Source of the DNA: Phycisphaerae bacterium
Lineage (GTDB): Bacteria; Planctomycetota; Phycisphaerae; UBA1845; UTPLA1
NCBI GenBank assembly: GCA_035275405.1
Contig: DATEMU010000005.1
Coordinates: 186,001 to 250,000, forward strand
Reading direction: 5' to 3'
DNA: 64,000 nt
Part shown: positions 1,359 to 1,787 of the stretch, one piece after another
How the letters are laid out: the number at the start of each line of letters is the position of its first letter
Position numbering within the stretch: the first letter of the stretch is position 1
The notes under the pieces: generated by a model
Told to the model about the DNA's origin: nothing
The model's input: the letters and a program-made list of their open reading frames with translations, nothing else
The model's database searches: none
Position numbers and translations under genes: made by a program

Positions 1359-1386
1359 TTGACAGTAATTCACGATGTGTTATAAT
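1359..1386 (+). promoter_or_regulatory. perfect-box sigma-70 promoter
   Basis: TTGACA at 1359-1364 and TATAAT at 1381-1386 are both exact consensus boxes with a 16-bp spacer. This is by far the best promoter match noticed in the window. Transcription would begin near 1393 and run rightwards into the structured stretch ending at the terminator at 1754-1787. Confidence 0.8.
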
Positions 1387-1392
1387 GGGCCC

Positions 1393-1787
1393 CGCAAGCA
1401 GGAAGAATCGGTTCTTCCTAATTGCTCGGTGTCGTTGCGACGACTTCGATGGTCGAGAAGGCTACGGTGTTGGATATCGCTGGCGGTTTACTTGAGGTAA
1501 ACTTTGTCGAGTCCAGAACGTCGTTAGTTAGTATTCGCCGCTCGATCTTTCGAAATATAGGTTCGTTGGTTTGCCCCGTGCAAACCTCCGGAACCCAAGC
1601 AACGACTCAATTAAGCGATCGCCGGTGTTGCGACTAGGCGATCGAGCACGACGCTAGCTCGGGGCTGTCCAAAGCCGGTTTGCAATGGACCTAATGCTCC
1701 AGAGACTGTGTTGGTTCGCGCCGAATTTCCCTTAAGTAAGTCGGTTCCAAATCGAGGCGGGGTGTCCCCGTCTCAAGTTCTTTTTTT
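1393..1787 (+). ncRNA. putative structured RNA or attenuated leader, ~395 nt
   Basis: Between the consensus promoter and an intrinsic terminator lies a series of clean hairpins: 1400-1419 (8-bp stem, TCGG loop), 1444-1459 (bulged), 1486-1502 (GTTTAC/GTAAAC), 1560-1595 (GGTTC/GAACC enclosing GGTTTG/CAAACC), 1616-1644 (CGATCGCC/GGCGATCG), 1643-1661 (CGAGC/GCTCG) and the terminator stem. I could not match it to tmRNA, RNase P RNA, SRP RNA or 6S RNA by their conserved core sequences. It may be a free small RNA, or a long leader controlling the two genes downstream by transcription attenuation, because the terminator ends just before the ribosome site of the gene at 1806. A weak TTG-started frame (1422-1637) inside it looks non-coding. 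Confidence 0.55.
1754..1787 (+). terminator. intrinsic terminator / attenuator
   Basis: A 9-bp stem (one G-U pair) with arms GAGGCGGGG and CCCCGTCTC around TGT is followed, after six bases, by seven T residues at 1781-1787. The Shine-Dalgarno of the next gene (AAAGGAG) starts within a few bases, the usual geometry of a leader attenuator. Confidence 0.75.

Follow-up and report, generated by a model that had tools for sequence, protein, structure and literature searches.

A candidate structured leader or free RNA upstream of the gene for an unnamed HicA-like protein in a Phycisphaerae bacterium

Closest described systems and the order of parts at the locus

Type III toxin-antitoxin operons consist of a promoter, an RNA, a terminator and a protein gene, in that order (review, PMC5086642). 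In the ToxIN, CptIN and TenpIN types the terminator is Rho-independent, the protein is small, the antitoxin RNA is built of tandem repeats and the toxin is an endoribonuclease of the ToxN/AbiQ type. HicA (PF07927), of the HicAB type II modules, is a ribonuclease of the dsRBD fold with its catalytic His in strand beta-2 (review, PMC7180214). Terminator-controlled leaders, such as ribosomal-protein leaders, T-box elements and riboswitches, combine a structured 5' leader with a terminator before the ribosome-binding site (RBS).

The locus described here was found in a 64,000-nucleotide stretch of DNA (the window) from Phycisphaerae bacterium, assembly GCA_035275405.1, contig DATEMU010000005.1, positions 186,001 to 250,000. 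Promoter, foldable stretch, terminator-like hairpin and two genes follow one another on its forward strand. The order is that of the type III operons, recognised here by sequence motifs only. Positions 1393-1787 most likely represent a structured leader, or a free RNA, tied to the gene of p73, a 73-aa protein. The locus differs from type III systems in that a repeat search of 1393-1787 gives no tandem repeats and in that p73 has no Pfam match and is modelled as HicA/dsRBD-like. It resembles the terminator-controlled leaders in its structured 5' part and in the position of the terminator, and differs from them in having no Rfam match, no supported antiterminator and no homologs.

The tentatively preferred reading, held with slightly less than even confidence, is that the promoter serves a structured leader, that partial readthrough gives p73, and that p73 binds structured RNA, the simplest candidate being this leader. 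The transcript would begin near 1393. The first ~390 bases would adopt a compact, branched fold, with a probably leaky terminator at their end, just before the RBS of p73. Termination at this site would leave many transcripts as free structured RNA; the remaining ones would read through into p73 and probably also into the gene of a zinc-ribbon/sigma-4 protein. By binding, p73 would set its own expression or form a ribonucleoprotein.

Promoter, fold and terminator of the candidate RNA

The promoter is of sigma-70 type and occupies 1359-1386. The -35 box TTGACA (1359-1364) and the -10 box TATAAT (1381-1386) are exact and separated by a 16-bp spacer, letter for letter as the first-pass annotation had read them; a TGn extension, read from the sequence, precedes the -10 box. 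A pattern scan of the window's first 20 kb gives no other site with 12 of 12 consensus positions. The pattern TTGACA-N15-18-TATAAT has four sites in the whole 5.29 Mb genome, this one included, and the reversed control pattern has 0. Two of the other three adjoin genes whose translations read, by eye, as small helix-turn-helix regulators. Given this rarity, these neighbours and the empty control, 1359-1386 is very likely a real promoter. The near-palindromic, operator-like sequence GTTAACACnGTGTnAAC occurs upstream of it in two copies, at 1067-1083 and 1275-1291 (4 strand matches, 0.32 expected).

The stretch 1393-1787 is more foldable than expected, and its predicted layout is a branched domain, not a mere series of hairpins. 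Its minimum free energy is -146.5 kcal/mol (z -3.1 in the first test, -3.4 in the second, where 2 of 100 equally long background windows reach as low a value), and after regression on G+C it ranks 2 of 320. Without the terminator z is -2.5, with 4 of 100 background windows equally low. The reverse strand is equally foldable (z -3.38). Pair probabilities exceed 0.85 in most helices. The 5' hairpin (1393-1425) is formed by 1394-1397/1422-1425 and 1400-1407/1412-1419 (0.94-0.97). It is followed by a branched domain (1431-1606) closed by helix 1431-1438/1599-1606 (p 0.99), with a long arm at 1445-1554 and a hairpin at 1560-1595. A hairpin at 1617-1643 and a long arm at 1644-1717 come next (0.89-1.00), then a weak hairpin, 1720-1724/1741-1745 (p 0.82). 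Seven stem-loops in series had been described beforehand; about seven helical elements are present, but the closing helix encloses two arms, and the simple chain is not retained. The frame 1422-1637, tried as a protein, was rejected: it has no codon-position bias and no Pfam match, which is not decisive.

The terminator-like hairpin and its T run extend over 1754-1787 (-16.9 kcal/mol). The stem 1754-1762/1766-1774 has 9 bp and a TGT loop (UGU in RNA), and seven Ts follow at 1781-1787. The RBS of p73, AAGGAG, lies downstream, directly before the ATG at 1806. Stem length, T count and place before the RBS are as first annotated; the T run does not adjoin the stem, with AAGTTC intervening. A U tract that starts six bases past the stem suggests incomplete termination. 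Since the T run begins at this distance, the element is not an ideal intrinsic terminator and may be leaky.

A plain 5' leader would also place a terminator directly before the RBS of p73. In this account a partial terminator would only tune the p73 operon's transcription or control it conditionally, termination would depend on a metabolite or a cellular factor, and p73 would not bind the RNA. During transcription, local pairings do compete for the 5' arm of the terminator. The annotation had proposed one alternative fold of this kind, 1574-1578 with 1758-1762; the letters can pair, but the energy rises from -146.5 to -128.9 kcal/mol, about 18 worse. A local antiterminator was likewise rejected, its gain being no better than chance (426 of 500 shuffles at least as strong). 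Attenuation through 1574-1578 is thus unsupported by energy and by the shuffle test, and no Rfam leader or riboswitch matches. The plain leader is considered unlikely, though it is the foremost of the alternatives.

The RNA appears to be an orphan in the data reached. At the gathering cut-off of Rfam 15, 1393-1787 matches no family, and up to E 10 only chance-level matches occur; a tRNA/tmRNA search is negative. The absence of known-RNA signatures noted at the outset is borne out. BLAST in 101 genomes gives, outside the own locus, only short chance-like matches, and the relatives searched by BLAST include no congeneric genome. In plasmid and phage DNA collections the matches lie in the sigma-like gene only, none in the RNA. 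Exact RNA patterns are absent from the viral contigs. The covariance models R1 (1610-1750, 392 genomes of the phylum) and R2 (1428-1609, 150 relatives) find the own locus only; both were built from a single sequence of one part of the RNA and are limited in reach, so distant relatives of the RNA are possible. In a synteny comparison, the lipoprotein gene upstream is retained in the relatives, but this neighbourhood is not. With the promoter, the stable fold, the probable terminator, the lack of an Rfam family and the lack of codon-position bias in 1422-1637, the original proposal of a candidate RNA or leader stands.

A small RNA in its own right, ~390 nt long and active elsewhere, with p73 downstream by chance, would agree with a strong promoter and terminator of its own and with the well-defined fold. 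It would leave p73 without a visible promoter, as no consensus promoter lies between the terminator hairpin and the RBS, and homologs of such an RNA were not found in the genomes searched. This account is regarded as distinctly improbable.

The HicA-like protein p73 and its relatives

The gene of p73 occupies 1806-2027. The protein is assigned to the HicA/dsRBD fold from alignment, AlphaFold, Foldseek and profile comparison. Its family is rare and without a name, comprising nine accepted relatives, mostly from Planctomycetota, one of them on a viral contig; three further candidates (L062, L063, L073) were judged false. No p73 was found in plasmid and phage records. No family model of Pfam, PHROG, NCBIfam or PADLOC matches, and p73 thus represents an unnamed and unmodelled protein family whatever the RNA does.

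With the 10-row alignment, AlphaFold gives an alpha-beta-beta-beta-alpha arrangement at pLDDT 85 (from the single sequence, pLDDT 51 only). The best five Foldseek matches in the PDB are HicA, HicAB complexes and a pneumococcal toxin-antitoxin complex, with dsRBDs next; the HicA matches are individually weak (best E 0.17). Comparison with 6g26_E by VIA-align gives Z 4.7, rmsd 2.9 and 57 aligned, within the range of unrelated rows; Z for the p73 matches is 4 to 5, where unrelated chains also fall. The p73 profile matches a planctomycete HicA profile, collected from relatives, with P 5e-5 and probability 67% (30% in the reverse direction). HicA and p73 share the motif pattern G..V....G...f.HP....VTV....kD.p..L.

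Unlike HicA, the p73 family has a longer C-terminal helix and, in 9 of 10 members, Glu in place of the catalytic His of the G-S-H motif. In a motif register set by eye this position is Glu34 of p73; His is found in L056 only. The HicA Pfam profile (PF07927) misses p73 and finds four HicA genes in the same genome, p73 not among them. Among the neighbours of p73 in the window, Pfam recognises no HicB. The label HicA-like is used because of the HicA/dsRBD fold and the Glu at the catalytic position. On the same grounds, a HicA and dsRBD fold without the catalytic His of HicA, p73 is proposed as an RNA binder: binding of RNA is likely from the modelled fold, and catalysis is doubtful from the residues present. 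His39 is kept in most members of the alignment, so some activity is possible. This fold, missed by the first-pass annotation, is the best lead to function.

A type III-like pair of RNA antitoxin, terminator and small toxin would fit the order of parts (PMC5086642) and the fold of p73, which is that of a ribonuclease toxin. The absence of tandem repeats in the RNA and of a ToxN match in Pfam, and the His to Glu exchange, make such a pair very improbable. The locus is not regarded as a member of type III systems; by analogy, it may work somewhat like them.

Returning to a leader bound by p73: should the RNA be produced and p73 bind it, a HicA-type toxin scaffold would have been turned into an RNA-binding regulator with a large RNA partner of its own. 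The stronger proposal, a new RNA-protein module of a HicA-derived, catalytically altered RNA-binding protein and a large structured RNA, with one promoter and metering by a leaky terminator, is a speculative extension to which little probability is given.

The leader arrangement is not a fixed property of the p73 family, since the one other leader found is ordinary, two relatives carry an upstream gene instead, and hairpins are not uniform. A distant relative (L055) has a TTGACA promoter, a leader of ~180 nt and a U8 terminator upstream of its p73 gene, which favours the preferred reading; against it, the stability of this leader is unremarkable (z -0.87), and its sequence has no similarity to 1393-1787. 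L054 and L056 carry related genes (218-270 aa, BLASTP E 2e-9) directly upstream of p73. No promoter-leader-terminator unit is present in L059, L065, L067 and L068. Short hairpins near the p73 RBS are common among the relatives, occurring in several. By eye, these genes (L054:732-1388 and, in L056, the ORF preceding p73) resemble NYN/PIN ribonucleases; the product of the L054 gene has no Pfam match. L056, the member that keeps the catalytic-position His, has two strong hairpins (z -6.2) at most 70 bases upstream of the RBS.

Second gene and surroundings

The second gene, 2066-2542, is probably co-transcribed with p73. It encodes a 158-aa protein with sigma-70 region 4 (Sigma70_r4, 1e-12) and a zinc ribbon, the latter by weak matches only. 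A near full-length relative is present only in genome G015 (51%). Relatives of both p73 and this protein occur there on separate contigs, and the two genes are therefore no obligate pair. The protein has no sigma region 2; its region 4 has ~60-70% identity to that of the housekeeping sigma factor.

That 1393-1787 is foldable, low-GC intergenic DNA without function, part of a decayed mobile segment, with a promoter simply reading into p73, is the least probable account: it agrees with the orphan sequence, the local G+C (44-56% against 62%), the equal foldability of both strands and the background windows of like stability, but chance is unlikely to place an exact promoter at one end of a foldable stretch and a terminator-like site at the other. 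A lone DUF2442 gene, 622-894, is located at the border of the low-GC stretch.
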